Below, one piece after another: positions 13,912 to 41,745 of a stretch of 43,845 nt of DNA; the stretch's first letter is position 1; the number at the start of each line of letters is the position of its first letter. The notes beneath the pieces are model-generated. The model searched no databases, was not told the origin of the DNA, and was given only the letters and a program-made list of their open reading frames with translations. A program made the translations under genes and the position numbers. The stretch covers positions 1 through 43,845 of the IMG/VR virus record IMGVR_UViG_3300028284_000016; one strand, 5' to 3'. The DNA comes from a virus.

Positions 13912-14389
13912 AATACTCTATTCCTGTTGCTTCTCTTCTTGTTAAGTGACAATCTACTATAATAGATACAGAAGAACCAAAGTTCTGTCCATAATCAGTT
14001 AAGTTGTAGCTCTTATCTCTACCTAAGAATAGTTGGTTCTCTCCTACTTTATCTACTTGGTAGTAATCTTCTGACCATACCACTATATCCCCTACCTCAG
14101 GTACGGTCTGTATATCTTCTAAGTCTCTTCTAAGGAAAGCAAAGGATACATCTCTACCTAAATCAGGTCCAAACTCATCTACCGTTACTACTTGATCTCC
14201 TCTTGTAATTAAACAGTTGAGTTTAGTAGGTTCTAAGTAGGTCTTATCTAAAGCTTCACCGTAGATGTTAGCTTCTGTATCATCTAATGATATTTTATAG
14301 TATAGAATCTCTTGTTCAACGACATCGCTTAATAGTTCCCTATTAATTCCCACTAGTAAATCAAAATCTCTATTACTTCCGAATATCAT
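13901..14389 (-). CDS. Neck / head-completion protein, T4 gp14-like
   Basis: A 162-residue protein with the pattern of gp14-type neck proteins: a central GRDVSFAFLRRDLED followed by VPEVGDIVVWSEDYYQVDKVGENQLFLGRDKSYNL, then a C-terminal strand SVSIIVDCHLTRRE. It is shorter than T4 gp14 (256). The start overlaps the 99-residue gene by four bases (ATGA) and its own 3' end overlaps the gp15-like gene by 11 bases, placing it inside a tight neck operon. An alternative is a generic head-tail connector of the same fold. The call rests on motif spacing and gene order. Confidence 0.58.
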   Translation of the reverse strand: MIFGSNRDFDLLVGINRELLSDVVEQEILYYKISLDDTEANIYGEALDKTYLEPTKLNCLITRGDQVVTVDEFGPDLGRDVSFAFLRRDLEDIQTVPEVGDIVVWSEDYYQVDKVGENQLFLGRDKSYNLTDYGQNFGSSVSIIVDCHLTRREATGIEYYGR

Positions 14390-14685
14390 TTCTCTTCTAT
14401 TGTCTGTTCCCCTACCTCTACTGAGATTATATTAGTGTATTTCTTAGTAGCATTGTCTCTAAACGATGTGTATGCTTCTATTCCTTCTTTTTGACTAATT
14501 AACTTAACTTTATATGTAGCTATATTAGCTTCTTGGTCTTGATTAGCTACAGTTACTGTTGTAACGCCCGGTAATGCTCTTAAAGCATCGTCATAGCCTT
14601 CAGCTCCCTCTTCACCGTAGGTTACTTTAACCATTGCTTCAAAGGTCCTGTAATTTATCTCTAATATTAAATCTATTAACTTCAT
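14386..14685 (-). CDS. Small conserved neck-cassette protein with capsid-targeting-like N-terminus
   Basis: A 99-residue protein. The start MKLIDLILEIN has the M-K-L-x-x-[IL]-I-L-E pattern found on several unrelated proteins in this window and ends in the (I/L)-x-E prohead-protease consensus at E9. The rest alternates strand and helix (LPGVTTVTVANQDQEA, ATYKVKLISQKEG, IISVEVGE) and looks like a small ferredoxin-like domain. It sits between the gp13- and gp14-like genes, overlapping the former by one base and the latter by four. T4 has no gene at this place. It may be a head-vertex or neck accessory protein; the function is not known. Confidence 0.6.
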   Translation of the reverse strand: MKLIDLILEINYRTFEAMVKVTYGEEGAEGYDDALRALPGVTTVTVANQDQEANIATYKVKLISQKEGIEAYTSFRDNATKKYTNIISVEVGEQTIEEK

Positions 14686-16687: not shown

Positions 16688-18250
16688 TTATATCTGAGCT
16701 AAATCAGATACAAAAATCTTACCGTAGAATTCTGGACGAATCATTTTCTTAGCGTAACGAGTCATCAAACCTTTTCTTGGTGTGAAAGATTCTGGATCGT
16801 ATACTAATGGAGTCATCAATAATGGAACGTAAGGAGCATATACAGCACCTGTTTCCAAGAATTGACTACCTCTATAACCCATAAGAACGATGTTCTCAGT
16901 CATATAAGGATTCTTGTACACTTTAAAGCGGTTAGCTAAGCTACCTACTTTTTGTACACCCATTGAGAATTCCATTTGATCACCATCTGTAGCTGCAGCA
17001 TATCCTGGGATAGACTCTAGTACAGTAGCAACTGTTGGAGATACTACTAAGAAATTAGCACCACCTCTTAAAGTTTTTTGGTGAATCTTGTTAGATACTT
17101 TTTGGATTTTAGTTCCTAAAGTTTGGAACCATTGACCTTGAGTATTGTAGAAATCAGAAGTACCAGTTGACCAGTTAGAACCAGTCCATACTTTATTGTT
17201 TTCTGCAGACCAGTGATCAGTAGTTCTAGCACCTAAGATCAACATATCTAAGATCTCTAAATCGATCTCCATAGAGATGTATTCAGATAACAAAGATGTT
17301 AACTCAGCCTCAGCATCAATACTGTGGTAAGCGTTAAGATCTTGTGCAAATTCTGGAGTCCATTGTGCTTTTAACTTTCTAGTCTTAGCTACAATTGCCT
17401 CAGAACTTAACTTAACGTCGATTTCTGGAATACCTAAGTTTTCTACTGCTACTGCTGATGCAGCTTCGTAGTCTCCTCTTGTATTGTCAGTTGGTTGCTT
17501 GTGGAATACTAACGGTAGTGATGCAGCAGCAGTTGCTCCTGTAGCACATAAAAATTCGATTGCATTTCCATTTACTTTAGTGTACTCGTTAAAAGTAGCA
17601 ACACCAGTTAATCTAAAAGCTCTTACACCTTCTACATCAGCAGAAGCTGGTAGTGGTACAGAGATAATGTCATAATCAGCTGGTGATAGACCAACTTCGT
17701 GGTTTATTGATCCAGAAGTTGCTCCTGTAGTAATAGTTGTAGCAGATGCTACTGATGCGTCATTGATTGAGTAACCAAATTGACCTGCACCATACATACC
17801 ACCGCTTACTGCGTTGTCTACAGCAATTTTGCTGTTAGCAGTTGATACGTTTCCGTATAGGTTATCTCCTTCTGCTCTTCCGTTTTTAGTATCTCCATAT
17901 TTGAAGTCTAAATAGAATACTAGACCTGAAGGTAAGTTCATTGGTTGAACTGATACGAAGTCTTGTGCTACGATAGAAGAAAATACTTTTCTTACTAATG
18001 GTAGAGCAACACCTGCCCAAGTTTCACCAGCGCCAGCGCTAAAGCCAGAACCTCCTGATTGATTTACGTTAGCTTCAGCTACGATTTGTTTTGCTTGGTT
18101 TTCCAAGATCATTGCCATGCTAGTTGCATACCTCTTATCTTCGATCCCCTCTAACAAACCAGAAGCTTGCCATTTATCTGCTAATTTAGCAGAGTCAGCC
18201 ATCATACTTTTGTAAGTATTCGAGCTTTCTAATAGGTTGTTAATTTCCAT
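16688..18250 (-). CDS. Major capsid protein, T4 gp23-like
   Basis: A 520-residue protein close in length to T4 gp23 (521). The N-terminal ~60 residues are a helical propeptide with protease-type sites (NLLE at 5-8, LLE at 32-34, ILE at 48-50, VAE at 57-59 followed by ANVNQSGG). After it come the gp23 core motifs, including LPLVRKVFSSIVAQDFVSVQPMNLPSGLVFYLDFKYG. The C-terminus (residues ~460-520) matches the end of gp23-type HK97-fold shells. In T4 the prohead protease removes ~65 residues, and a similar cut near E59 is expected. The gene follows the scaffold by 26 bases with no promoter element between them and ends at a strong terminator. Confidence 0.93.
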   Translation of the reverse strand: MEINNLLESSNTYKSMMADSAKLADKWQASGLLEGIEDKRYATSMAMILENQAKQIVAEANVNQSGGSGFSAGAGETWAGVALPLVRKVFSSIVAQDFVSVQPMNLPSGLVFYLDFKYGDTKNGRAEGDNLYGNVSTANSKIAVDNAVSGGMYGAGQFGYSINDASVASATTITTGATSGSINHEVGLSPADYDIISVPLPASADVEGVRAFRLTGVATFNEYTKVNGNAIEFLCATGATAAASLPLVFHKQPTDNTRGDYEAASAVAVENLGIPEIDVKLSSEAIVAKTRKLKAQWTPEFAQDLNAYHSIDAEAELTSLLSEYISMEIDLEILDMLILGARTTDHWSAENNKVWTGSNWSTGTSDFYNTQGQWFQTLGTKIQKVSNKIHQKTLRGGANFLVVSPTVATVLESIPGYAAATDGDQMEFSMGVQKVGSLANRFKVYKNPYMTENIVLMGYRGSQFLETGAVYAPYVPLLMTPLVYDPESFTPRKGLMTRYAKKMIRPEFYGKIFVSDLAQI

Positions 18251-19567: not shown

Positions 19568-20113
19568 TTACCCTATTACTCCAATGTCTGATAAGACATC
19601 TTTAATTAAGGTGTGTACTTCTTTACCTTTAACGAGAGATTTAACTGATGCAAATGCTGTAGCTCCCCAAGCAGACTTTCTAATTGAAGTAATCACTTCA
19701 CCTCCGTATTGTCCTGCTAAGAAGAAAATAAATAAAGCGTAAAGTCCTTTTGTTACTGTTGGAATATACTTCTTAGTCGGCCCTACCATTACTAAGGTAA
19801 GTACCCTTTTAATTGGGGACATAAAAGCTGTTTCGTTCTTATGAGTCCAATCGTATATTGCTTTTGCTTTATCACCAACTTTTTCCCATCCTTGTTTTTT
19901 AGCAATTTTGGTAGCCATACTAGAAAGTAAATTAGCGACTGTATTAGATAAAAGTATATAACTTAGTACCCCTAAAACACCTGCAACTTCATTTGCCTGT
20001 CCATCTTGTTTTATATCTTTACCCTCAAGTTCTTTTTGGATAGCTTGAGCAAGTACTGAGAAGTTTTCCTGTTCGTGGAGGGTATCTTCAAGTATTATAT
20101 TTGCTAATTTCAT
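19568..20113 (-). CDS. Putative prohead-packaged membrane protein with capsid-targeting-like leader
   Basis: A 181-residue protein of unknown family. The start MKLANIILEDT has the shared M-K-L-x-x-[IL]-I-L-E leader, with a candidate (I/L)-x-E cut at E9. Two hydrophobic segments suggest membrane helices: VLGVLSYILLSNTVANLL (~45-62) and LYALFIFFLAGQYGG (~123-137). The C-terminus is amphipathic (VHTLIKDVLSDIGVIG). The gene sits between the protease and scaffold genes, where T4 has none. A packaged hydrophobic protein could insert into the host membrane on injection; that is inference. Confidence 0.6.
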   Translation of the reverse strand: MKLANIILEDTLHEQENFSVLAQAIQKELEGKDIKQDGQANEVAGVLGVLSYILLSNTVANLLSSMATKIAKKQGWEKVGDKAKAIYDWTHKNETAFMSPIKRVLTLVMVGPTKKYIPTVTKGLYALFIFFLAGQYGGEVITSIRKSAWGATAFASVKSLVKGKEVHTLIKDVLSDIGVIG

Positions 20114-20129: not shown

Positions 20130-20708
20130 TTATGCTCTTAGAATATCGTTAATGATAGCGTCTAATGTACTGTAGTTTATAGCTTGTGTTTTACCCTCTT
20201 GTAATTGTATTGGGTTCATAAAAGCTCCGTGGGTGGAAGGATTAGATACAAAATCCCAGCATACTAATTCAAAGTCTTGCTGAACTTCTAATGTTCCTTC
20301 GTTTGTTTGGTTTACTGAGCCTGTACCTCTAGATGAGATTCCAATTGTATGACCAGCTTTAATAATTTCTTTAACTATATTACCTGATGGTGTATTAAGT
20401 AGTTCAACACGTCCCATAAGGTCGTTTCCTTTCCACCATAAGTCTTTTACTATATGAGAAGCATTCTTTAAAGAGACTACAGGAGATTCAGGGTGATCAA
20501 GTTCTCCGAAAGCATTTCCGTTTTTAACAAACTCTGTTATGTATTTCTTTGCCTCTCTTTCTAAAATAGCCTTAGAATAAACTCTACCGTTTTGATTCTC
20601 TGCTACTGCTCTCTGCATTACACCTTCTACTTCGAATACTCCAGGTCTCCCTTTAGCTTCTCTAAGTATAGATTTAAACGGTGTAACATTTAATAGTAAT
20701 TGTTGCAT
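20130..20708 (-). CDS. Prohead core protease, T4 gp21-like (S80 family)
   Basis: A 192-residue protein with the gp21 landmarks GVFEVEGVMQRAVAENQNGRVYSKAIL, the catalytic-His region GELDHPES (H72) and the catalytic-Ser region IGISSRGTGSV (S125/S126), then DFELVCWDFVSNPSTHGAFM. Gp21-type serine proteases reside in the prohead core and cut scaffold, capsid and internal proteins after (I/L)-x-E. The protein's own N-terminus contains SILRE|A (E17), a plausible self-processing site. It lies 3 bases downstream of the 703-residue gene and 17 upstream of the membrane-protein gene, in T4-like order between portal and scaffold. Confidence 0.93.
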   Translation of the reverse strand: MQQLLLNVTPFKSILREAKGRPGVFEVEGVMQRAVAENQNGRVYSKAILEREAKKYITEFVKNGNAFGELDHPESPVVSLKNASHIVKDLWWKGNDLMGRVELLNTPSGNIVKEIIKAGHTIGISSRGTGSVNQTNEGTLEVQQDFELVCWDFVSNPSTHGAFMNPIQLQEGKTQAINYSTLDAIINDILRA

Positions 20709-23011: not shown

Positions 23012-23862
23012 GATGTTTTGAGTTCGTTAACTAAATCGTAGTATTGCATTAAGTTTACCAAGTGGTTATCATTAACACGTTCCTTATTAGTAATAGGGTT
23101 AATGTTTTTTATAATCTCTTCTAATTTAATCTTTATTACTTCGTTTTTAATAGTACCGGTATGCTTTTTAATAGCTGCTGCAATTTTAGCTAATTCCTCA
23201 TTAACTACATTACGTAGTCTAGTGTTAGAATTAACTGATGTAATAAACTCCTTTAGTATGCTCTTTTGCTCCGGTAGAAGGTCTTTATATTTGTCGTTAA
23301 ACTTTTCTAATAGAATTTTAAACGTCAACAACCTTAAGTCTTTGTCGTACTTACTGTAGTCTTCTATAAGAGTATCTTTAACATCATTTTCGCTCTGTGG
23401 GCTAGATGTTAAGTGCTGTAAAATAGTAGTTTTATTCTCTACTAAAGATTGAGGATCTATTAGATCTGAGTTATTCTGTGCTTCTAGTAAGCAAAATAGA
23501 GCTGCAAATGGTTTATAGTCTCTTATCTGTATACCAAAGAACTCTTCTACATTGTAGCTTTCTTTAATATCAGATATAAGAGCATATTTTTGCTTCTTTA
23601 ATTGCTTTTGATCTAATTTCCTAGATACTTCAGTAATAGTAGAAACAATAGTCTCTGCTTTAGCCTGTGATACAGTTCTGTTCTTACTAATAAACTCATA
23701 GAGTTTAAATTCTTTAGCAAGAGCTGTCTTACCTGCAAAGTACTTTCTAATTATAGCAACAGCTTGAGAATCTCTATTATTAAGAGTGTCTGAAGCTACT
23801 TGCTTAACTAGTAGTTCAAAGATAAGACCTGTATTTTTAAATTTTGAGTGTTTTACTTTCAT
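23008..23862 (-). CDS. Conserved hypothetical head-module protein (284 aa)
   Basis: Family not recognised. It is strongly helical and basic. It begins MKVKHSKFKNTGLIFELLVKQVASDTLN and contains several long Lys/Glu-rich helices without Cys pairs, signal or membrane span. It is located between portal and the small prohead protein, with an ATGA overlap downstream. The leader has an ATATTTATAATAG element 25 bases before the ATG. The place in the operon suggests a prohead core or portal-assembly protein. Confidence 0.55.
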   Translation of the reverse strand: MKVKHSKFKNTGLIFELLVKQVASDTLNNRDSQAVAIIRKYFAGKTALAKEFKLYEFISKNRTVSQAKAETIVSTITEVSRKLDQKQLKKQKYALISDIKESYNVEEFFGIQIRDYKPFAALFCLLEAQNNSDLIDPQSLVENKTTILQHLTSSPQSENDVKDTLIEDYSKYDKDLRLLTFKILLEKFNDKYKDLLPEQKSILKEFITSVNSNTRLRNVVNEELAKIAAAIKKHTGTIKNEVIKIKLEEIIKNINPITNKERVNDNHLVNLMQYYDLVNELKTS

Positions 23863-23879
23863 TCTACACGTTTACTATT

Positions 23880-23887
23880 ATAAATAT
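23880..23887 (-). promoter_or_regulatory. CTATTTAT-family element (ATATTTAT variant)
   Basis: The coding strand reads ACATATTTATAATAGTAAAC, 25 bases before the ATG at 23862. This is the same spacing as at the portal and gp13-like genes. Confidence 0.4.
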
Positions 23888-23890
23888 GTA

Positions 23891-25792
23891 CTATATACCT
23901 AAATCTTTGATTTGATCTTCATTAAGGAGATTTGACTCTACTTTAGGTTCTTTTTTAAATACAATATTCTTTAATGATTCCTTATTCTTATGGTATATAG
24001 CTTGGGTTTTTAATGGAGCATCTTTGCTCTCAGCCATATTTTCATTATCTGATGGATATCCACCATGCATACCATGTTGACCTAAAGGATCTCTTCCTCC
24101 CAAGCCGTCATTAGTACCGTAGATAGAAAATTTCTCTGTTGGTCTTCCACCTTCAGGGCCTGGTTCACCGTGAGATGGTTCTTCTACTTCTGAATAACCT
24201 AGTGGTACATCGTCAACTCCACCTCCTTTAGGTGTAGAGGTTGCTCTTCTACCGTACATAGAAGCTAAATCATGTGGTGTACCGTAAGAAATTCCTGATT
24301 TAGCAGGATCATTTCCTTCTGCTTCAATTTGACCTACTCTAAATGTTCGTTTACTATCTTCTCTGATTAGGTCTCTCATCTCTATATAGTTATCTTCTGA
24401 CAAGTTAAATATATTTTCATAGATATAATCAGTAGAGAACATTTTAGAATCCTTCATTTGATTTGCTAAGTCAATCTTCTCCTTTAATAAGGCAACTTTC
24501 TCTTGCTCAAATATTATTGAAGGTGTTGTTAGCTTTAGCTCAAAGTTAGTTAGTGATTCTCCTGTGAATCCCTGTGTGTATAAATGTACTAGAGCAATTT
24601 TAGTTAATTCTGACTCTAATATTTTCTGTATCCTCTCAACAGTACGAGCAAATCTAATATCTTCTGCTGCTAAAGTAGCTTTACCTGATAAATCTCCTTC
24701 AAAGCCAAAGTATGCTTTAGGTATTTTTAAAGCTGCAAATAATTTAGCTTGTAAATACTGTACATCATTAGTTCCGTCGTATTCTAATCCCTTAGTAGTT
24801 TCAATTCTAGTAGAAGTATCACCACCTCTTACAGGCATGTAGAAATCTTCCATCATGTTCTGCATATTGAAACGTAAATTGTATTGACCATCATCCCCTA
24901 TGTAAGGAGTCTTCTTCATTGTGTTGATAGTCTTTTGCATAAACTGCTCTACTTCATTAGGAGGTATTGAACCTACGTTAATGTAGAACATTCTCTTCTC
25001 AGGAGCTCTCATTATTCTATGTATCAACATAGCGTCCTCCATTAAAGTAACTTGTTTATGTATTTTCCTAGCTGGTTCTAAATAAGAACGTCCATAAGGT
25101 AGGAAAGCTGTATCTGATAGTAATCTAAAGTGAGCTACTTCGTAGTTGTCAAAGAAGATAGCATCTTTGTGGTTCTTTCTATAGTTTGGATCAGCTTGTG
25201 CTGCAATTCCATCCATTTCTAATTGAAATTCTACTTTAGAAGGATCTTCTGGATCTGTTCCTTCATGACGGATTAGATTATACACCGTATAAGGTAGTAC
25301 ATTATATACGCCAAACTTCTCTGCTATCTCTAACTTTAAGAAAAAGTCTCCATATTTAAGCATATTACGTGCCCATGACCATAGATTAAACTCTATGTTT
25401 AATACGTCGTAGAATAGGTTGTAAAGTACTTTTTGAATATTCTCATCAGATGATTTAATTGCTAAGATTTCGTTTTGATCGTTCTTAACGCAGCATTCAT
25501 CTGCTATAATATCTAATGCTGATGCAATAATAGGGTCAGTATCCATCCCTTCATAATCAGTATATAACTGAATACGTAAGGTTTGGTAGTTCATGTTTGG
25601 ATTGTAAACATTATTTCTACTATTCACATAAAGTCTACTAAACCTATCCATAAGAGAATTAGTTTCGTACTTACCTGTTGCTTGGATAGAATTAATATCT
25701 GCTACCTTTAATTGATCGCCACCTACGTTACGTATGACAACGTCATTTGAAAATAATCTTCTTAATCTACCGAATAATGTAGTATCCGCCAT
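23891..25792 (-). CDS. Portal vertex protein, T4 gp20-like
   Basis: A 633-residue protein that fits the gp20 family (T4: 524) with a C-terminal extension. Landmarks are YQTLRIQLYTDYEGMDTDPIIASALDIIADECC, LWSWARNMLKYGDFFLKLEI, the clip/stem region RIMRAPEKRMFYINVGSIP and GLEYDGTNDVQYLQAKLFAALKIPKAYFGFEGDLSGKATLAAEDIRFARTVERIQ. The extension beyond ~510 is Gly/Pro-rich and ends VESNLLNEDQIKDLGI, with an LNE|D protease-type site. It forms the dodecameric DNA channel at the capsid vertex and docks terminase and neck. A CTATTTAT element lies 25 bases upstream. Confidence 0.93.
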   Translation of the reverse strand: MADTTLFGRLRRLFSNDVVIRNVGGDQLKVADINSIQATGKYETNSLMDRFSRLYVNSRNNVYNPNMNYQTLRIQLYTDYEGMDTDPIIASALDIIADECCVKNDQNEILAIKSSDENIQKVLYNLFYDVLNIEFNLWSWARNMLKYGDFFLKLEIAEKFGVYNVLPYTVYNLIRHEGTDPEDPSKVEFQLEMDGIAAQADPNYRKNHKDAIFFDNYEVAHFRLLSDTAFLPYGRSYLEPARKIHKQVTLMEDAMLIHRIMRAPEKRMFYINVGSIPPNEVEQFMQKTINTMKKTPYIGDDGQYNLRFNMQNMMEDFYMPVRGGDTSTRIETTKGLEYDGTNDVQYLQAKLFAALKIPKAYFGFEGDLSGKATLAAEDIRFARTVERIQKILESELTKIALVHLYTQGFTGESLTNFELKLTTPSIIFEQEKVALLKEKIDLANQMKDSKMFSTDYIYENIFNLSEDNYIEMRDLIREDSKRTFRVGQIEAEGNDPAKSGISYGTPHDLASMYGRRATSTPKGGGVDDVPLGYSEVEEPSHGEPGPEGGRPTEKFSIYGTNDGLGGRDPLGQHGMHGGYPSDNENMAESKDAPLKTQAIYHKNKESLKNIVFKKEPKVESNLLNEDQIKDLGI

Positions 25793-27404: not shown

Positions 27405-28481
27405 TTAGAATACGTACCACCATCTAGGTAGTCCATCTTTCATTTGTACTTTAATTTTCGTTCCAGCTAAATCTGATAGTGCATCTGCAGCTATTTTTAT
27501 GAATGAACCTGAACTATCGTCAAGAAATAGTACCTCTTCGAATTTATCTAATATAACGTATAAATCAATTACTTTCTTTCCAAATACTACTTCTAGCTTA
27601 TCTGCATCGATAGTGTTTCCACTTTTAAATGATGATAGATTAAAATCTGTAAAGTCAATACCTCTATATAGTCTCTTAATTATAGAGTCCATGATATCAA
27701 TTGCTGAATCTACTTTACTGCTGTCTACTGTAGCAACTGCTTCTAGTATTTTATTTAACCTATGGAATGGTCTATTACCTTTAGTCTGAACTTCGAGTTG
27801 TTGACCTACTAAGCTGCTAATTTCTTTAATAGCGTCTGCAATCATTACGCCTGCTGTTGCTTTGCTAAATTCAGCTTTTTGGCCCATTGGTATTGCTCCG
27901 CCGTTTTTAACTTCAATTCCTTTCTTTCCTACACCGACATCTCCATGAATTGGATCTCCATGTACATCTCCTACAAGAGTACAGAGTAAGACTTCTCCTT
28001 TACCAGTTGCAATATTACCCATTGATGGTTTAGTATTAAGTAGGTAAGAAATTGTCTCAGCAGATATAAATTTTTCGAATGCTGTCTTAAGGTTACCTGA
28101 GGCTCCTAAGCCGTCGTAGGTAATAGGTGTTCCTGTTATATAAGCGTGGAATTTCTGAATGTCTCCATTCTCTACAAATTCATTATATATTTGTTTACTT
28201 ATAGAAGTTACTGCTTTACCTTTTTTGTTTAGGTAATCCATTACTTCCTGTTTATAAGCTACTCCGGAAATACCGCTAAGTATGTTCTTGAGTTGTTGAG
28301 GTGTAAACTCTCCTATCTTAATAGCATTAATAACTTCATCTTTAGTAATTTGACCATCTGCTGCGCCTAATTCCTTTAAAAGAGATTCTAATATTGCTTT
28401 GTCTTCAGGATTGTTCATATCTGGAGTACCGTTTTTAGTTCTCCATGCCCACTCTGTATATAGTTTATCTGTAACGTTCAT
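27405..28481 (-). CDS. Putative PD-(D/E)XK-type nuclease-like protein upstream of terminase
   Basis: A 358-residue protein. The region GKGEVLLCTLVGDVHGDPIHGDVGV-GKKGIEVKNGGAIPMG (~160-200) has the spacing of a PD-(D/E)XK core: G-K-G-E, then D, then E-V-K-N. A similar G-K-G-E...I-E-[IV]-K-x-x-G-G pattern occurs in proteins of other marine T4-like phages. The N-terminal ~100 residues are helical with an EF-hand-like DGQITKDEV; the C-terminal half is helical. It sits immediately before the large terminase, where a small terminase could be expected, but I see no small-terminase features. Nuclease activity is an inference from the motif alone. Confidence 0.5.
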   Translation of the reverse strand: MNVTDKLYTEWAWRTKNGTPDMNNPEDKAILESLLKELGAADGQITKDEVINAIKIGEFTPQQLKNILSGISGVAYKQEVMDYLNKKGKAVTSISKQIYNEFVENGDIQKFHAYITGTPITYDGLGASGNLKTAFEKFISAETISYLLNTKPSMGNIATGKGEVLLCTLVGDVHGDPIHGDVGVGKKGIEVKNGGAIPMGQKAEFSKATAGVMIADAIKEISSLVGQQLEVQTKGNRPFHRLNKILEAVATVDSSKVDSAIDIMDSIIKRLYRGIDFTDFNLSSFKSGNTIDADKLEVVFGKKVIDLYVILDKFEEVLFLDDSSGSFIKIAADALSDLAGTKIKVQMKDGLPRWWYVF

Positions 28482-29566
28482 TATGCTTCTGGTTCTTCAG
28501 TTTCGTCTTCGAAATCAATTTCTTCTCCTCCTAAATCAGCTGGTGCTTCATCTCCTCCTCCGCCGTCTTCTGCTCCAAAGTCCTCTTCTCCACCTTCAGC
28601 TCCTCCATCTCCTCCAGGGAAGTCTCCTCCTCCACCTCCTCCGCCGCCGGAATCAGTATCAGGTGCTTCACCTTCTCCAGCTCCACTCATCGGTGCTTCT
28701 TTATAAAGGATAGATAGCTTATCAAGTGCTTGTTGGTACTCTGATATTACAGATAAAGAGTATCGTTTACCCATAATTTGAGCTTCGAAAGTTTTACCTG
28801 TCCACTTTAAGATATAGTCTTGTCCGTTTTTAAGGTTAACTCTAAATGAAGATGGTCTAGGTGAGATCCAATCAATAGAATCTACAAATTCTTTAAAATC
28901 TTCTGTCTGTAATTTTATTAAAGCTGCTTTAACAGTAGGAAATTTAGCTAATATAGTATCAGTAGAATCTTCTAAAACTGTCTCTGGTGCTGCATCTGTA
29001 TCTGGTTCTTCTTCTGGTGCTGGTGCTTCATCTTCTTCTGCTTCTTCTAATTGTTGCCAAAGAGACTCTTCTTTTAATAGTGATGTATGAGAGTAAATCA
29101 GTTCTACTGACTCGTTGATATCTTCAGATATTCTTCTCATTTTCATGAGTTCGTATTGATCTGGTCTCTCTATTCTTAAATACCTTTGTAGTTTTCTAAA
29201 GTTAGTCTTAATTAATTCAAAAAGCTCTCTAGCATTTTTATCTTGTCTAATATCTGGAGAGTTCATTAAGTTTCTAATGTCAGATATTAATGAAGTAAAG
29301 TTAGAGTATAACCCTTCAAATGAGGGTAATTTTACTACTGTATGACCTATATTACCTGTAGTTTTATCTACCGAAGTTGTCTTAAAGTATGTTTGCATAT
29401 CAGAAGATACGAAATCCTTTTCAGGCCATTTAGAAACTCCGTATCTTTTTTCGATACTATCTCTAAAGGCTTTTGGAAGTTCTTCTAAGCCATATGTGCC
29501 TTTCTCTTTCTCTTCTTCTCTTAGTTCAGAAAATGCTTCTAGTATAAGTTTCTCTAATTTATGCAT
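28481..29566 (-). CDS. Putative internal head protein with capsid-targeting-like leader (361 aa)
   Basis: The start MHKLEKLILEAFSE carries the shared leader with a candidate cut at ILE|A (E10). Further protease-type sites are INE|S (~153) and LEE|A (~174), which flank an acidic Pro/Ala/Glu linker. A folded middle domain (~205-300, FRVNLKNGQDYILKWTGKTFEAQIMGKRYSL) follows. The C-terminus is an acidic tail of polyglycine and Glu/Asp. No enzymatic motif is seen. It lies 3 bases after the 1126-residue gene and overlaps the next start by one base. It is best read as a processed, packaged core protein. Confidence 0.58.
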   Translation of the reverse strand: MHKLEKLILEAFSELREEEKEKGTYGLEELPKAFRDSIEKRYGVSKWPEKDFVSSDMQTYFKTTSVDKTTGNIGHTVVKLPSFEGLYSNFTSLISDIRNLMNSPDIRQDKNARELFELIKTNFRKLQRYLRIERPDQYELMKMRRISEDINESVELIYSHTSLLKEESLWQQLEEAEEDEAPAPEEEPDTDAAPETVLEDSTDTILAKFPTVKAALIKLQTEDFKEFVDSIDWISPRPSSFRVNLKNGQDYILKWTGKTFEAQIMGKRYSLSVISEYQQALDKLSILYKEAPMSGAGEGEAPDTDSGGGGGGGGDFPGGDGGAEGGEEDFGAEDGGGGDEAPADLGGEEIDFEDETEEPEA

Positions 29567-33426: not shown

Positions 33427-34005
33427 CTAAATTTCAGTACGTAAATTTTTAAGGTACCCTTTCATTTCTTTCATGACCTTCTCTTTATATGCTTGTGGCA
33501 TATCATTCCAATCTTCTACATCTCCTGCTTCTGTTACATATGAACTAGTGCCTTCCATAGCTTCCAATACATAGGCTTCCATGTCATTAGCAAATGCTTT
33601 TAAGTTACCTTGTAGCATTCTCTTTTCATATTGATCGTACAGCCCTACCTTCTTTAAGGTTGCTTCCATAAGTACGGTACATGGGTCAAAACAAAAACCA
33701 TGTATCTTATACATCTTTTTTGCTAAGTGGTGTTTCATTTCACCTCCACAGTTAGGACAAGATAGGGGTACCCTAACAGATTTTTTAGCTTCGTCTAGCT
33801 TGGTAATATTCTGTTTAAGTCCGTCTTTGATAGTCCACTGTTTACCATTCTCTTCCCAAATGTCTCCTTCTGAGTATCTTATCTGTTGTTTTTGGTATCC
33901 GGTTTGTTGCTTTGTAGAAGAAGTAAAGTCCTTATTGACTATGTTTCTTACTCTTTGTACATCGCTTTGCTTAAACTCTTTCTTTAGTAAACTTTCGTTA
34001 CTCAT
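33427..34005 (-). CDS. Zn-ribbon protein of unknown function (192 aa)
   Basis: The centre contains LSCPNCGGEMKHHLAKKMYKIHGFCFDPC, a C-x2-C...C-x3-C metal site with extra His residues. Gln/Lys-rich polar segments precede it and a helical, acidic C-terminus follows (NDMEAYVLEAMEG, VMKEMKGYLKNL). Proteins with this C-P-x-C-x-G...K-K-M-x-x-x-H pattern are found in marine T4-like genomes next to structural genes. No catalytic residues are evident, so it may bind nucleic acid or another phage protein. It overlaps the HAD gene by 8 bases. Confidence 0.58.
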   Translation of the reverse strand: MSNESLLKKEFKQSDVQRVRNIVNKDFTSSTKQQTGYQKQQIRYSEGDIWEENGKQWTIKDGLKQNITKLDEAKKSVRVPLSCPNCGGEMKHHLAKKMYKIHGFCFDPCTVLMEATLKKVGLYDQYEKRMLQGNLKAFANDMEAYVLEAMEGTSSYVTEAGDVEDWNDMPQAYKEKVMKEMKGYLKNLRTEI

Positions 34006-34546
34006 AACCTAGCTCTTTTAATTTTTCGATAACATGATTCACATCACCGTTTTTACATCTTATTGCTATTCCTCCTTTTGCAGCCCACTCATCTATATTA
34101 GACGGTTTGTCGTCTATAAGAATAGAATTCTCGTTTGCATACCTTTGCTTTGCTTTTGAATATGCAAAGATGACTTTTGGTTTAGGGTTAACATTATTCT
34201 TAACCCAAAGGTTTTTCCCGAGTCTAGAGTTGTTATGTCTAGAGGGAGAAGTAAGTAAATCAGGTTGATATGGTTTAATAAAATCCCAAAGCTGTTGTCC
34301 AGCTGGCATCCAATCCATTCCTACCCAAAATTTAACTCCTACTGTATTATCTATTAACTCCCAGAATGCTGGTGTTCCTTTTTCTTTTTCGTATACTTGG
34401 GGATTCATCCCCGTATAGTGTTCAAATCTACTTTCAAAATCTGTTAGTACTCCATCCATATCACAATAGATCTTATACGGAGGTACTTCTTTTTTCTCTG
34501 CTAAAGGGTAAGCCTCTAGCAATTCTACTAAACTTTTTTGTTTCAT
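33998..34546 (-). CDS. HAD-superfamily phosphatase / 5'(3')-deoxyribonucleotidase-like
   Basis: A 182-residue protein. HAD motif I is YCDMDGVLTDF (D29, D31), motif II is LLTSPSRH, and the motif III/IV region is ENSILIDDKPSNIDEWAAKGGIAI. The layout matches the small 5'(3')-deoxyribonucleotidase-like HADs that dephosphorylate (deoxy)nucleotides. An N-terminal extension, MKQKSLVELLEAYPLAEKKE, precedes the fold and has an (I/L)-x-E site (LLE|A at 9-11), so the enzyme might be packaged and trimmed like other leader-bearing proteins here. It overlaps the nucleotidyltransferase gene by four bases. Confidence 0.75.
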   Translation of the reverse strand: MKQKSLVELLEAYPLAEKKEVPPYKIYCDMDGVLTDFESRFEHYTGMNPQVYEKEKGTPAFWELIDNTVGVKFWVGMDWMPAGQQLWDFIKPYQPDLLTSPSRHNNSRLGKNLWVKNNVNPKPKVIFAYSKAKQRYANENSILIDDKPSNIDEWAAKGGIAIRCKNGDVNHVIEKLKELGYE

Positions 34547-36399
34547 AACCTTTGTTTAATGCCTAACTTTGGAAGGCGTTTATTCCACAATATACGAATT
34601 TTTTTACGGTTCTCCAACTCTACGCCAGCTTTTTCAAAGTAATCTTCTACTACATCAGCGAAAGGAGTCCTAGATTTTTTAGCTTTAAAATACATTCCTT
34701 GTATCATGGCATCAACTTCTTTCGGGAGTTGATAATATTCATCTTTATCCATTACACCCATATCGATCATACCTCTTACTAGAGCATCATCTTCTATATA
34801 CTTACCGGGTTTAACGTTTTCTCCGTCTTGAGTTAAGTGCTCTAACTCATGTCTTACTACATCCTTAAGGTCAAATGATACTTCTTGCCAGTCGGGGTTC
34901 TTTTGTATTTTAAATTTAACGTTTAGCATTGGTTGAATTTCATCTCCGTCATCATCGAAACCAGCGTTTGCTCCTCCGTCTACACTATATGTGTCTTCTG
35001 TAAACTCTACTACTCCTAAGAAGTCAAATTCAAACTGTGAAGAAGGAATATCTACTTCTGGATCTTCTGGGTTACCTACTCGGAATTCAAACTCTCCTCC
35101 TTTGTCTCCTCTATCGTGGATGTCTATAAAAGTTTCTAGTGCTAATCCAGATAACTTATTTGCTAATTTGTCGTATTTACCTTCTGCCATAACCGTTTCA
35201 TTTGTTTCCTCTTTCTTCATTGCTTTTCCTGCAGCTTCTGCATCCTTATGAGCTTTCGAATTACCGTGAGATGGTTTCTCTCCTCTTTTCTTTTTAGCAT
35301 TTATATTGGCCCATAGTCCAGGTTTCTTTGCTTCAGAGGTGTTCTTATAACTGTCTTCCCAGTTTCTAAATGTTATGTTACCAACTAGGTATGCTTCTTT
35401 CTCTAATTCTAATAGAGCGTCGTCAGCTGTTGTGTCTGATGTTTGAATGTTTCCTAATCTATTCTCTATGTTTTGAATATGGTGAACCATTTCATGAGTA
35501 AAAGATCTACATATGTCTTTAGGGTGTCTACCGCTTACATATAGTACTATTTCTTTACTGTTTGGATCGTAATGAGCTGTCTTTCCGAAGAAATCTTTAG
35601 CATTCTCTTCATCATATCTAACTTTAACTTCAGGTAGAGGTTGAATATTCATATCCTGGTCTAACATATACTCTAATATAGATCCAATATACTTAGTATA
35701 TTCAGGTTTACTATTAAGGGCAGATTCTTTCTCTATTTCTGGAGTTGTATCTTCTGCAAAATACTCTGATAGAAATCCATTTATGTTATTACTTATTACT
35801 TCGGCAACTATCTTTTCTTTTAAATTTGATAGAATACCTAATATTTGGTCTTTAGTTAGTTCCTTAGGGAAAAAATCAACAATAGTGTCTAAGTTACCTG
35901 AGAGTATACTCTTTCTAAAGTTTGTTGCTCTAACTCCGGAATCATTAGCTGTTGTTACTGCTAATCCTTTCACATTAGGAGTATTTTTAAATGTAGTTAC
36001 CCTCCTTAGGTCTACAAAATCTTCTTCACCTCTTAAGCCTGTTACTGCTACAAACTCTTCATCAGGGTTTGCTTTAGCCCAATCTTTAGCAGCAAACATA
36101 GGGTTCTTTTGACCGTCTATAATTTCTACATTAGATAGGTGTTGAGCATATATCTCCCATATCTTAGTAGCTTCTTGTTTATCTATTCCGTTTCTTTCTC
36201 CTCCTCCTACAAATATTAGTACTTTATCTATAGATGGTTTACCTTCTGGTCTACCTTTTAATAGAGATGTTGCTTTTTCTTTGAAATCTGTTATATCATA
36301 AACTGTTCCATTGTAGGAACCATCTAATAAAGATTTTACTACATTAAAATGTCCTCTATGAGGTGGTTTATATGCTCCGGGGTATAGTGCTGTTGCCAT
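34543..36399 (-). CDS. Fusion: NMNAT-like nucleotidyltransferase + two HExxH metallopeptidase-like domains
   Basis: A 618-residue protein. Residues 1-~185 form a nucleotidyltransferase of the NMNAT/cytidylyltransferase type: LYPGAYKPPHRGHFNVV with H-x-G-H at 14-17, and an ATP-site TTANDSGVRATNFRKSIL analogous to the S/T-x-x-x-[RK] motif. Around 300 the sequence RSFTHEMVHHIQNIE has HExxH (302-306) with downstream LELEKEAYLVGN as a likely third ligand. A second HExxH occurs in VVRHELEHLTQDG (517-521), followed by LPKEVDAMIQGM. A Lys-rich linker (~355-400) separates the two. The fusion suggests nucleotide/NAD metabolism combined with proteolysis. It overlaps neighbours by 1-4 bases. Confidence 0.72.
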   Translation of the reverse strand: MATALYPGAYKPPHRGHFNVVKSLLDGSYNGTVYDITDFKEKATSLLKGRPEGKPSIDKVLIFVGGGERNGIDKQEATKIWEIYAQHLSNVEIIDGQKNPMFAAKDWAKANPDEEFVAVTGLRGEEDFVDLRRVTTFKNTPNVKGLAVTTANDSGVRATNFRKSILSGNLDTIVDFFPKELTKDQILGILSNLKEKIVAEVISNNINGFLSEYFAEDTTPEIEKESALNSKPEYTKYIGSILEYMLDQDMNIQPLPEVKVRYDEENAKDFFGKTAHYDPNSKEIVLYVSGRHPKDICRSFTHEMVHHIQNIENRLGNIQTSDTTADDALLELEKEAYLVGNITFRNWEDSYKNTSEAKKPGLWANINAKKKRGEKPSHGNSKAHKDAEAAGKAMKKEETNETVMAEGKYDKLANKLSGLALETFIDIHDRGDKGGEFEFRVGNPEDPEVDIPSSQFEFDFLGVVEFTEDTYSVDGGANAGFDDDGDEIQPMLNVKFKIQKNPDWQEVSFDLKDVVRHELEHLTQDGENVKPGKYIEDDALVRGMIDMGVMDKDEYYQLPKEVDAMIQGMYFKAKKSRTPFADVVEDYFEKAGVELENRKKIRILWNKRLPKLGIKQRL

Positions 36400-37331
36400 T
36401 ATGCTAAAAAGGATTGTAAGTCTCTATCTATTTCTTGAGGAGTTGAATGAGCTAACTTTTCTTGAAATTTAGGATCGTATAACATATCTACTATATTATC
36501 CATAACTTCAACATGTTTTCCATCATTCTTCTCTTTTCTATCTCTATACTTCGTTATTGCGTCTTTTAGTTTATCAGCTCCAGGTCCTGCTCCGTTTTTC
36601 TGATAAGCTTTTATAAAGGCATTCTTTATAGCTTTATCCTCAGATCTATTGTTAGTATCCCAATTAATACCTGTTGTAGCTTTTTTAAACTCTTGCTCTT
36701 CTTCATCATTCATTTCAACTGGAGAGAAAAATGTTGAACCTCCTACTCCATGCTTAGTATTATATTTCTGCAAGTAATCTTTTAGTCCTTGAGTTCCGTT
36801 TTTTGCTGCTGTATCAAATCCTTCGACTTCTTTTGCATATTTACCTCCTCTATCACTAACGTGAACGGAAAGATTACCGCTTAGCATTTTATCATACTCT
36901 CCAATCAATTGATAGACATTACGCCAGGTAGAGAATACTGCTGGTCCGGGTATACTTCTATCTGATCTACTAAAGTTAGATATGTAAGAAATCATAGGAT
37001 GAGTATACACCATTACCATATATACTTTATACCCTGCATTTAAGATATCTTTTACCTTAGAAGCATTAGAAGCTGTCGTATCCCAAACGAAACTAGTTTT
37101 TTCTTCGAGGGCTGCTGCTACGTCTTTGTTGGTTTGAGCTGCTGCTGGTCCTAGTTTGTTGTGGTATGGATGATTGGGATCCTCTACGTATTTGTCTGGG
37201 TTGAACTGTTCTAGGCTGTCTAGGGACAATTGGTTTAATAGGTGTGACTTGCCTGACCCTGCTCCCCCTGCCATTACCACTGCTTTCGGGGCGTTGGTAG
37301 ACTCTAGGATTAGTTCTGATAGTTTTATCAT
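36399..37331 (-). CDS. Zeta-toxin-like P-loop kinase with capsid-targeting-like leader
   Basis: A 310-residue protein. The leader MIKLSELILEST fits the shared M-(I)-K-L-x-x-L-I-L-E pattern with a candidate cut at ILE|S (E10). It is followed by the strand APKAVVMAGGAGSGKS, with Walker A at 22-29. Zeta-toxin/PNK-type landmarks are FNPDKYVEDPNHPYHN, FVWDTTASN and the lid region SRSDRSIPGPAVFSTWRNV. Zeta toxins phosphorylate UDP-sugars; related phage kinases act on nucleic acid or nucleotides, so the substrate is open. The C-terminal half is helical and charged. The first 79 codons overlap the 3' end of the lipoprotein gene by 239 bases in another frame. Confidence 0.72.
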   Translation of the reverse strand: MIKLSELILESTNAPKAVVMAGGAGSGKSHLLNQLSLDSLEQFNPDKYVEDPNHPYHNKLGPAAAQTNKDVAAALEEKTSFVWDTTASNASKVKDILNAGYKVYMVMVYTHPMISYISNFSRSDRSIPGPAVFSTWRNVYQLIGEYDKMLSGNLSVHVSDRGGKYAKEVEGFDTAAKNGTQGLKDYLQKYNTKHGVGGSTFFSPVEMNDEEEQEFKKATTGINWDTNNRSEDKAIKNAFIKAYQKNGAGPGADKLKDAITKYRDRKEKNDGKHVEVMDNIVDMLYDPKFQEKLAHSTPQEIDRDLQSFLA

Positions 37332-37938
37332 TGTTGTTAGTATTTACTGTTCTTCTCTTTTTTACCTTTACTTCTTTTGTTGATTGAATCATAGCAGCGT
37401 GTGCTCTACCATTTCTTGTAGTTGTAGTTCCTCTTCTACCGCTATGATAAGCTACGTTAGTACCTCTATATCTATTATAATTAGGACCGTAGTAACCGTT
37501 GCTCCAGTTATTCCAACCGTTAAAACTCCATCCATGATTATTCCAACCATAGTACATATTGTATCCCCATCTATCATACCCAAATGGTGACCATCTATGA
37601 GGAGAACCCCAAGAATTCCAACCTGTATAACCCCAAACCCAATCATTCCACATTTGACTTCTACTGTAGTAGGGGTTATAGTAATAATACCTATTACCTA
37701 GTAACCTATTGTTCCAATCAAATGAACTAGGTTGACTTATAGCATACTGAGCATAATCATATCTAAAGTTAAAATCAGTTCTAAGTAAATTACGTAATTG
37801 AAATTCATTTTTAATTACATTAATGTTTACATCAGAGCCTTCTAGGACGTATTCTGGTTCATGATTAATAGTGCTCAATTGAAATGAAGCACAACCTGTT
37901 AGCACTGTTGATAGTAATACAATAAGTAATTTTTTCAT
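37093..37938 (-). CDS. Phage-encoded lipoprotein, W/Y/N-rich, with overprinted basic tail
   Basis: A 281-residue protein. A type II signal peptide MKKLLIVLLSTVLTGC has a lipobox L-T-G-C (13-16), so C16 should be lipidated. Residues ~60-165 are very rich in Trp, Tyr, Asn and Gly (for example GWNSWGSPHRWSPFGYDRWG), as in some Bacteroidota cell-envelope proteins. From about residue 203 the frame overlaps the kinase gene and becomes a biased R/S/Q/P tail. Phage lipoproteins can block superinfection or alter the envelope, which is a possible role. A CTATTTAT element lies 41 bases upstream of the ATG. Confidence 0.68.
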   Translation of the reverse strand: MKKLLIVLLSTVLTGCASFQLSTINHEPEYVLEGSDVNINVIKNEFQLRNLLRTDFNFRYDYAQYAISQPSSFDWNNRLLGNRYYYYNPYYSRSQMWNDWVWGYTGWNSWGSPHRWSPFGYDRWGYNMYYGWNNHGWSFNGWNNWSNGYYGPNYNRYRGTNVAYHSGRRGTTTTRNGRAHAAMIQSTKEVKVKKRRTVNTNNNDKTIRTNPRVYQRPESSGNGRGSRVRQVTPIKPIVPRQPRTVQPRQIRRGSQSSIPQQTRTSSSSNQQRRSSSPRRKN

Positions 37939-40501: not shown

Positions 40502-41287
40502 CTACCAGTAACCAGAAAAGTTAGAGCTTCCTCCAAGTGATTTCCAATATCTACCTATATTACAAGACCAATAGCCTGCTTTAGTTTTATCTTTCTTAGT
40601 TGAACACTTATGACGTGCTGCAAAAGAAGCTCGTGCTCCCTTTTGTTTAAATTTGACAGAAAGGCCGGTATCTCCGAATGACACCTTTTTAACGTTGCCT
40701 TTGGGAGATTTAACATAAACGTAGAACTTTTTACTTCCGCCTCGTTTTGGTTTGTTAAGCTGCACCTTTTTGCCTTGGTACTCTGCTTCGTTCATATATC
40801 CTACTGAAGCTTTAAGTAGGTCAAATCCATTATAATCGAATGATTCATTATTAAGCTCGACTGCTTTTCTAAACTTATCCATATCGATCGTTCCTCCAAT
40901 TGATTCAACTAATTCTTGAATCTGGTCGAAGTCTATCATTTCCGATATAGTTGACGCTTCGTCAATTGTATCTTCATTTTCAATCATAGAGTCAATATAT
41001 GCTCCAATCTCAAATAACGGATTATATTTTGTAGAAGCCATAGGAAGGTCTAATGGTACTTTCATTCCGTTATACTCTCCGTATTCCCCTATATCTGTTG
41101 TTTCTAGTAATTCTTGGTCTTCTTCGGTAAGTTCTATTTCTTCGTTGCTAAGAGCTTCTCTTGCTTCGCTAAATAGATTAACAAAGGCTTCGCTAGAGTA
41201 GCGGTAGACATGCTCATGTAAAGAGAGTCCATGGTCTAAGTGGTACTGTAGTGAAGGGTATCCTATTACGTCTTTTAATTTAATCAT
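40502..41287 (-). CDS. Protein with conserved phage C-terminal Arg/Cys/Trp domain (261 aa)
   Basis: The N-terminal ~165 residues are acidic and helical (MIKLKDVIGYPSLQYHLDHG...; SNEEIELTEEDQELLETTD). The C-terminal ~90 residues form a conserved domain: KKFYVYVKSPKGNVKKVSFGDTGLSVKFKQKGARASFAARHKCSTKKDKTKAGYWSCNIGRYWKSLG. This A-R-H-x-C...Y-W-S-C-x-x-G-R-Y-W pattern is widespread in marine T4-like phages, often at the end of head-associated proteins, with two Cys that may bind metal. The junction sequence YMNEAEYQGKK holds an N-E|A site where the domain may be released. Role unknown; a packaged DNA-binding protein is plausible. Confidence 0.6.
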   Translation of the reverse strand: MIKLKDVIGYPSLQYHLDHGLSLHEHVYRYSSEAFVNLFSEAREALSNEEIELTEEDQELLETTDIGEYGEYNGMKVPLDLPMASTKYNPLFEIGAYIDSMIENEDTIDEASTISEMIDFDQIQELVESIGGTIDMDKFRKAVELNNESFDYNGFDLLKASVGYMNEAEYQGKKVQLNKPKRGGSKKFYVYVKSPKGNVKKVSFGDTGLSVKFKQKGARASFAARHKCSTKKDKTKAGYWSCNIGRYWKSLGGSSNFSGYW

Positions 41288-41745
41288 ATTTCGAAATCTT
41301 TTCTGTAGAACTTAGCTAAAACGTTATCATTAATGTAATCGTTTCCTTCTAAGACCTCTTTAATAAATAGGTATTTACATTCGAAATACGTCAATTGTTT
41401 TTTTGTAGGTACAAATTGCAGTATCTCTCTAGTAAACTCTTCTTGTTTTTTATCCTTAATAAGAGTAATAATTTCTTTATGAGAGCCGTAGTAGGTTTTC
41501 CAGTCTGATTCTTTTACTATCTTCTGTTTCATAGGAGTTCTTCCGCCTATGCCTTTTGTTTTACGCTCTAATCGAAGTTCTTCTAATGCTCTTTTACCTA
41601 ACTTCTTATTTCTTTCAAAGTAGAGTACCTTTTTACCTATGTACTTTCTACCTGTTGGAGTATGAGTCACTTCGTAAATAAACCCAAAAGAAGATTTTGG
41701 CATTTCTTCAATACTCTCTATAATAGAGTCTTTATATTTCCACAT
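41284..41745 (-). CDS. GIY-YIG-type nuclease-like protein
   Basis: A 153-residue protein. FGFIYEVTHTPTGRKYIGKK has the GIY (here G-F-I-Y, 21-24) and YIG (K-Y-I-G, 34-37) strands with normal spacing, followed by a basic helix and KTYYGSHKEIITLIK, which supplies the Tyr/Glu region. The C-terminal FECKYLFIKEVLEGNDYINDNVLAKF resembles T4 Seg-like and other phage GIY-YIG proteins. It could be a free-standing homing endonuclease or a phage DNA-processing nuclease. The N-terminus MWKYKDSIIESIEEM holds an IIE|S site similar to the leaders on other proteins here. It overlaps the next gene by four bases. Confidence 0.66.
   Translation of the reverse strand: MWKYKDSIIESIEEMPKSSFGFIYEVTHTPTGRKYIGKKVLYFERNKKLGKRALEELRLERKTKGIGGRTPMKQKIVKESDWKTYYGSHKEIITLIKDKKQEEFTREILQFVPTKKQLTYFECKYLFIKEVLEGNDYINDNVLAKFYRKDFEI

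Follow-up and report, generated by a model that had tools for sequence, protein, structure and literature searches.

The 43,845-nucleotide virus record IMGVR_UViG_3300028284_000016 of IMG/VR, taken at full length and hereafter called the window, contains an open reading frame (ORF; 34543–36399) for a 618-amino-acid protein that raises the question of what a phage does with a nucleotidyltransferase and two HExxH metal-site domains on a single chain. A sequence-only reading of the window had proposed an NAD- or nucleotide-manipulating module with proteolytic functions, possibly a counter-defence against NAD-depleting host systems. We arrive at a different reading, to which we assign a probability of about 0.5: that the protein belongs to a modular, polyvalent-like set of internal head enzymes that would be packaged and cut. 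What the gene contributes to is probably a kit of enzymes packed in the phage head and injected, rather than a stand-alone NAD-repair system. Its strand, which the sequence-only reading did not give, is minus, as is that of every other feature located in the window below.

Scanned by itself against Pfam, the window protein had no match at E ≤ 1, and phmmer against PDB returned only noise. Since searches with the single protein were uninformative, relatives and a fold search were needed. The protein carries HRGH at residues 14–17, HEMVH at 302–306 and HELEH at 517–521. In 40,000 shuffled copies of its own sequence, at least one HExxH arose in 880 and at least two in 5. Conservation among homologous sequences is stronger evidence for the HExxH sites than this count: all 30 homologues retain H302, E303 and H306 together with E333 unchanged, and all 56 domains of the second type retain H517, E518 and H521 together with E561. 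Because of this invariance we discounted a chance origin of both HExxH-plus-Glu sites. In the N-terminal domain, H14, H17 and the RA(T/S)xxR motif (157–162; R157, A158, T/S159, R162) are conserved among homologues. An AlphaFold model based on a 30-sequence alignment features three separate ordered domains, with disordered linkers at residues 202–232 and 356–406. The invariant residues and the three-domain model bear out the assignment of the sequence-only reading, an H-x-G-H nucleotidyltransferase followed by two HExxH motifs, each with a third ligand. The protein is a string of beads, composed of one nucleotidyltransferase (hereafter referred to as NT) and two metal-site HExxH domains (Z1 and Z2).

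NT (residues 1–195, 35815–36399; HRGH at 14–17, RATNFR at 157–162) has the PPAT/NMNAT fold. VIA-align superposed it on PPAT with a Z of 15.0 (root-mean-square deviation, rmsd, 2.4; 153 residues aligned) and on NMN/NaMN adenylyltransferases with a Z of about 12. The signature, the fold and the (S/A)TxxR motif of the HxGH nucleotidyltransferase superfamily (PF01467, CTP_transf_like/cyt_tran_rel) are all present, and one relative, L071, exceeds the PF01467 cut-off (31 versus 21 bits). Its fold (with Z values reaching 15) and its HxGH and (S/A)TxxR motifs make NT resemble NMNAT, NadR and PPAT, but unlike them it stays under the cut-off of every NMNAT/PPAT equivalog profile in NCBIfam (TIGR01527, 12 bits versus 181; NF002243, 15.1 versus 127), the matches to such profiles being weak. 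These scores weaken the statement that NT is an NMNAT, while leaving an NMNAT-like fold unaffected.

Z1 (residues 232–353, 35341–35706; HEMVH at 35482–35496, invariant E333) is modelled as a helix (233–247), three strands (257–261, 275–278 and 283–287), a helix bearing HEMVH (293–311) and a helix bearing E333 (327–355). Zincin-like metallopeptidase domains of polyvalent proteins consist of an N-terminal helix, a three-stranded sheet, the HExxH helix and a second helix with the Glu ligand (PMC5512222). The modelled Z1 follows this order, and metal binding and a peptidase role are predicted for it. Z2 (residues about 404–618, of which 407–618 correspond to 34546–35181; HELEH at 34837–34851, invariant E561), folded alone with 56 sequences, gave a pLDDT of 92.7 and a pTM of 0.89; its secondary-structure order, HELEH and E561 are compatible with a zincin-like metallopeptidase. 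Its similarity to PDB structures is weak (best Z 4.5), in a list made up mostly of zincin peptidases. VIA-align ranked first an alpha-ketoglutarate-dependent oxygenase, matched through its HExxH domain (8s5f; Z 4.5, rmsd 4.3, 142 aligned), and SjiH-Ni (22ob; Z 4.2) is near the top, an oxygenase thus being tied with true peptidases. Because of the weak similarity and this tie, we grade a peptidase role of the modelled Z2 as likely.

Whether the HExxH domains are peptidases at all is a question separate from packaging. They might instead be metal-dependent HExxH-type oxygenases or inactive structural folds, as 8s5f and SjiH-Ni among the leading Z2 matches would suggest, and profile searches of Z1 and of Z2 against PDB sequences gave no relevant match and none to any solved peptidase. 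We regard this as unlikely, given that the remaining leading Z2 matches are mostly zincin peptidases and that the third ligand is a Glu, as in gluzincins. Furthermore, Foldseek with the whole model listed the zincins selecase and IrrE, ranked under nucleotidyltransferases, and DUF6782, a putative metallopeptidase family of Pfam, matched 14 of 30 homologues, weakly. Structure prediction, which the sequence-only reading had named as a check on its domains, produced neither of the outcomes that it had named as refuting: the nucleotidyltransferase fold and motifs are intact and Z1 has a zincin-like element order; for Z2 the resemblance to PDB structures did not exceed a Z of 4.5, with zincins dominating the list.

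The same reading knew of no described protein with this architecture. A tblastn search of sequenced phages, however, found isolates of the Flavobacterium phage vB_FspM_immuto, whose gp088 ("NMN adenylyltransferase, NadR", its only annotation) has the order NT-Z1-Z2, is 34% identical over the full length and is followed by a deoxyribonucleotidase-like HAD gene. It differs from the window protein in an extra N-terminal domain of about 290 residues, which, as read from its sequence alone, appears Pol-beta-nucleotidyltransferase-like, and no zeta-type kinase was found adjoining it. In IMG/VR, 517 candidate stretches contained Z1 relatives and 303 contained Z2 relatives. A single scan of genome contigs detected only four contigs of metagenome-assembled genomes, so that the family is essentially viral; it comprises hundreds of T4-like viral contigs with reshuffled fusions. 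The hosts are Flavobacteriia and probably related bacteria. We found no description of the NT-Z1-Z2 architecture in the literature, in a search of mostly open-access coverage that makes this weak evidence of absence. How widespread the architecture is had escaped the sequence-only reading.

The complete architectures among non-redundant ORFs included NT-Z1-Z2 (46), NT-Z1 (40), NT-Z1-Z2-HAD (20), NT-Z1-Z2-Z2-HAD (3) and NT-Z2-Z1 (3), and a fusion to a kinase (KIN), NT-Z2-Z1-KIN, also occurs. One relative, L119 (1828–6630), has a run of at least 1601 residues with NT, Z2, an Fe/Mn superoxide dismutase (SOD), the basic module described below, Z1, the kinase and HAD. SOD recurs in the multi-enzyme string of L098 (1–3654), where it is joined by a plastocyanin/azurin-type domain (Sod_Fe_C E-values of 1e-28 or better in both relatives), and LxE|N-type sites surround the SOD and plastocyanin modules of these two strings. 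SOD, cupredoxin and zinc ribbons are among the modules of relatives' strings, and in L139 Z1 lies behind the nucleotidyltransferase-like start GRCNPPTTGH. Taking multiple disparate catalytic domains in variable order as what defines a polyvalent protein, the sequences of NT-Z1-Z2, NT-Z1-Z2-HAD, NT-Z2-Z1-KIN and NT-Z2-SOD-Z1-KIN-HAD would place them in this class. Zincin modules are thus found beside other enzymes, too, and their order is shuffled, which fits a polyvalent-type string better than the dedicated NAD module with proteolytic functions that had been proposed.

In the proposed reading, the cutting would take place in the linkers. The NT/Z1 linker (residues 196–231, 35707–35814; 202–232 disordered in the model) is the position at which relatives carry extra modules, often after an LxE|G site. 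Between Z1 and Z2 lies a basic linker module, 'KPGLWANINAKKKRGEKPSHGNSKAHKDA' (residues 354–406, 35182–35340), which the sequence-only reading had missed (at about 354–404). This module is mobile, being common to other phage proteins and present as separate small ORFs near relatives' loci. Within or at the end of the disordered linker is the putative prohead-protease junction MAE|G (residues 404–407, 35179–35190), with Met rather than Leu or Ile at P3 and with its E-G conserved in relatives. Cleavage there is predicted, and the window encodes an S77 protease. The T4 protease gp21 cleaves after L/I-x-E (PMC9026906), a site that the junction motif [L/I/V/M]-x-E|[G/A/S/D/N] resembles in sequence. 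Z2 is typically preceded by [LIVM]-x-E-G-[RKV]-Y-D, and 45 of 46 Z2 junctions have an [LIVM]xE[GASDN] site. In 58 non-redundant homologues, the linkers contained 183 such sites versus 85 ± 10 after shuffling (ratio 2.16) and the domain interiors 54 versus 164 (ratio 0.33); control motifs in the same linkers had ratios of 0.86–1.28.

The neighbouring genes carry a second signal. Upstream lies a gene for a zeta-toxin/AAA_33-type P-loop kinase (36399–37331), which overlaps the NT gene by one base and is fused to NT in L119 and L123; downstream, with a 4-base overlap, lies one for a 5'-3' deoxyribonucleotidase-like HAD phosphatase (33998–34546), which 25 relatives have as a fusion with their NT-Z proteins. 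Both couplings noted by the sequence-only reading are therefore real, and the three-gene order that it suggested looking for is kept at 82 of the 95 relatives' loci that have room on both sides; the kinase/NT overlap is 4 bases long in 59. TAATG and ATGA overlaps, which are typical of translational coupling, are present at kinase/NT junctions; inspection by eye revealed no conserved slippery heptamer there that would make a kinase-NT fusion by frameshifting.

The T4 capsid-targeting sequence (CTS) is a 10-residue N-terminus in which residues 4 and 7 serve targeting and residues 8 and 10 processing (PMC9026906). We scored a CTS pattern of hydrophobic residues at 4, 7 and 8 and Glu at 10. The kinase begins with the CTS-like 10-mer MIKLSELILE|S (37302–37331), and 78 of 91 kinase homologues fit the pattern, as compared with 0.8 expected by shuffling; K3, L4 and E10 are invariant in a 14-sequence alignment. 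The HAD leader, MKQKSLVELLE|A in the window, fits in 22 of 85 homologues (0.6 after shuffling), while the control families scored 1/38 (primase), 0/57 (exonuclease) and 0/112 (ORF192). Only 4 of 40 window genes carry the pattern, one of them directly adjoining the protease gene. Stand-alone Z2 ORFs start with MIKLIDILKE|GAYD, so that the E|G of the fused junction is there the end of an N-terminal leader. Where an NT homologue is extended at its N-terminus, the extension ahead of NT often opens with a related leader, for example MNSLSQFLVE|S or MNQLTKFLVE|G.

The head genes are those of a T4-like phage. The window encodes a gp21-type prohead protease of the S77 family (20130–20708; PF03420, E 7e-36), the predicted cutting enzyme; 11 of 12 large relatives encode such a protease as well. 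A gp23-type major capsid protein (16688–18250; PF07068) establishes the T4-like head, and a T4-type portal is encoded as well.

Our computations cover the domains and their catalytic residues, the fusions and the order of genes, the enrichment of the motif, the conservation of the leaders and the presence of the protease; packaging, cutting, injection and substrates are inferred and would be connected as follows. NT, the zincin-like domains, the kinase, HAD and, in relatives, SOD, cupredoxin and zinc ribbons would be separable beads on flexible linkers that carry gp21-type sites, [LIVM]-x-E|[GASDN]. They would enter the prohead core through the CTS of the kinase or through the proteins' own leaders, the S77 protease would cut the junctions, and the products would be injected along with the phage DNA. 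Once inside, host nucleotides or cofactors may be the substrates of the kinase, NT and HAD, while the zincins may be peptidases acting on host or phage proteins. For the general form of this reading, in which T4-like marine phages package enzyme polyproteins in the virion, let them in by a CTS, cut them at LxE|G with the prohead protease in a manner coupled to head maturation, and inject them jointly, we would put the odds somewhat below even.

Several observations weigh against packaging and cutting. The window protein starts with MATALYPG, directly with its domain and without an N-terminal CTS; immuto gp088 (MSGVAGG) likewise lacks one, and the strict pattern is present in just 5 of 112 NT ORFs. 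The T4-type leader is therefore a feature of the neighbouring kinase and of some NT homologues, not of the window NT-Z1-Z2, and its absence is where the packaging model is weakest with regard to this gene; our guess is that the protein is co-packaged with the kinase. The linker enrichment was measured against shuffles that keep composition and not phylogeny, among homologues that are not independent, and the linker boundaries are profile-derived, so that unrecognised domains fall inside "linkers". The window protein has just two [LIVM]xE[GASDN] sites, one of them within a helix, and some window proteins that are not necessarily processed have a comparable site density. The first 75 or so codons of the kinase overlap an upstream lipoprotein gene, an overlap that alone could conserve the leader region. 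The NT gene has replication genes (primase and exonuclease) as well as head genes among its neighbours, and we found no virion proteomics.

The overlapping upstream protein bears a lipobox (37093–37938, MKKLLIVLLSTVLTGC), and its C-terminal tail covers the kinase start in another frame for 239 nucleotides (37093–37331). Of 71 non-redundant kinase genes, 63 keep the lipoprotein frame open for at least 190 nucleotides, compared with 0.04% after synonymous recoding; the overlap thus appears to be selected. Third-position variability is the same in the overlap as in the rest of the kinase (1.26 versus 1.26).

The cutting could also be the work of the zincins themselves, Z1 and Z2 acting as autopeptidases that release NT and each other with no part for the prohead protease. 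Iyer et al. (2017; PMC5512222) have proposed such autoprocessing for polyvalent proteins, in which zincin metallopeptidases are the commonest domain, sometimes in several copies per chain, and the invariance of both HExxH-plus-Glu sites here would agree with it. We consider it improbable nevertheless: the junctions match the gp21 consensus in phages that encode a gp21-type protease, the kinase and HAD proteins, which have leaders of this kind, are mostly not joined to zincins, and in the 40 homologues with a single C-terminal Z1 there would be little to release beyond NT.

A fusion enzyme that is made during infection and stays in the cytoplasm would dispense with packaging, NT serving nucleotide or NAD metabolism as an NMNAT/NadR-like enzyme beside a kinase and a nucleotidase; the zincins would then have an accessory or regulatory role. 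The PPAT/NMNAT fold and weak profile matches of NT, the kinase-NT-nucleotidase gene order, the primase and exonuclease neighbours and the leaderless start of the window protein are what such an enzyme would predict. Nucleotide metabolism leaves unexplained, however, the SOD, cupredoxin and zinc-ribbon modules, the LxE junctions and the kinase leader, and we found no NAMPT/NAPRT-family gene (PF04095) in 12 relatives of 104–177 kb, possibly incomplete like the window itself, a 43.8-kb fragment. We regard this alternative as rather doubtful. The last of these observations also bears on the counter-defence proposed by the sequence-only reading, in which NT would supply the NMNAT step in reconstituting NAD. 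Such reconstitution is indeed used by phages (PMC12774641), and the fold and motifs of NT are NMNAT-like. With its partner family missing from those relatives and NT far under all NMNAT equivalog cut-offs, we consider it very improbable. A gene that might have been enlisted in its favour (41284–41745) has phrog_447, "NAD synthetase", as its best PHROG, but it also matches homing endonuclease profiles and has a GIY-YIG-nuclease-like start; because of the homing endonuclease matches we doubt the label, which is also used for immuto gp100 and is probably wrong.

The packaging-and-cutting reading, which is the best-supported one, combines two known ideas. The strings share with the polyvalent proteins of Iyer, Burroughs, Anand, de Souza and Aravind (2017; PMC5512222) the disparate enzymatic domains per chain, their shuffled order and variable copy number, a zincin-like HExxH-plus-Glu domain as commonest part, and predicted injection with the DNA; they differ in being encoded by T4-like phages and in having gp21-type prohead-protease sites as junctions. 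They share with the T4 internal head proteins IPI–III and Alt (PMC9026906) a leader of about 10 residues ending in L/I-x-E, an S77 protease and, in Alt, an ejected enzyme, but the T4 proteins are not multi-enzyme strings. Here it is a kinase, HAD or Z2 that carries the leader, and sites of this type recur between string modules. If the reading is correct, a T4-style leader together with LxE junctions would predict which of the many unannotated proteins of the abundant marine T4-like phages enter the host by injection at time zero, and the mosaic architecture of such proteins would be explained. It would tie T4 head maturation to the polyvalent idea, with the prohead protease in place of zincin self-processing, and these phages would inject host-tuning enzymes such as superoxide dismutase.

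Other window proteins have leaders of the same kind. A 181-residue protein adjoining the protease (19568–20113; MKLANIILE|D) is a candidate internal head protein, and a 361-residue protein (28481–29566) starts with the kinase-type leader MHKLEKLILE|A. A 99-residue protein (14386–14685) starts with MKLIDLILEIN, which is kinase-like, and might be a further internal head protein.

In immuto (L001), we considered a kinase-NT fusion and rejected it: the kinase did not match, and the N-terminus of about 290 residues of gp088 looks Pol-beta-like in sequence (GSVKAG...DLDI). This N-terminus and gp089, both within 12212–14000, have GS...D-x-D-like motifs recalling Pol-beta nucleotidyltransferases and occupy the place of the kinase in other phages. 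Leaders of the form F-x-L-x-x-F-L-x-E-N begin gp076 (24623–24922), gp077 (23622–24623; annotated as cob(I)alamin adenosyltransferase) and gp092 (9797–10345), making these three candidate packaged proteins. In L141 (270–3257), Z1 lies behind an N-terminal region containing KWDGAP, which recalls the KxDG motif I of ligases and nucleotidyltransferases and suggests a possible link to end-joining enzymes.

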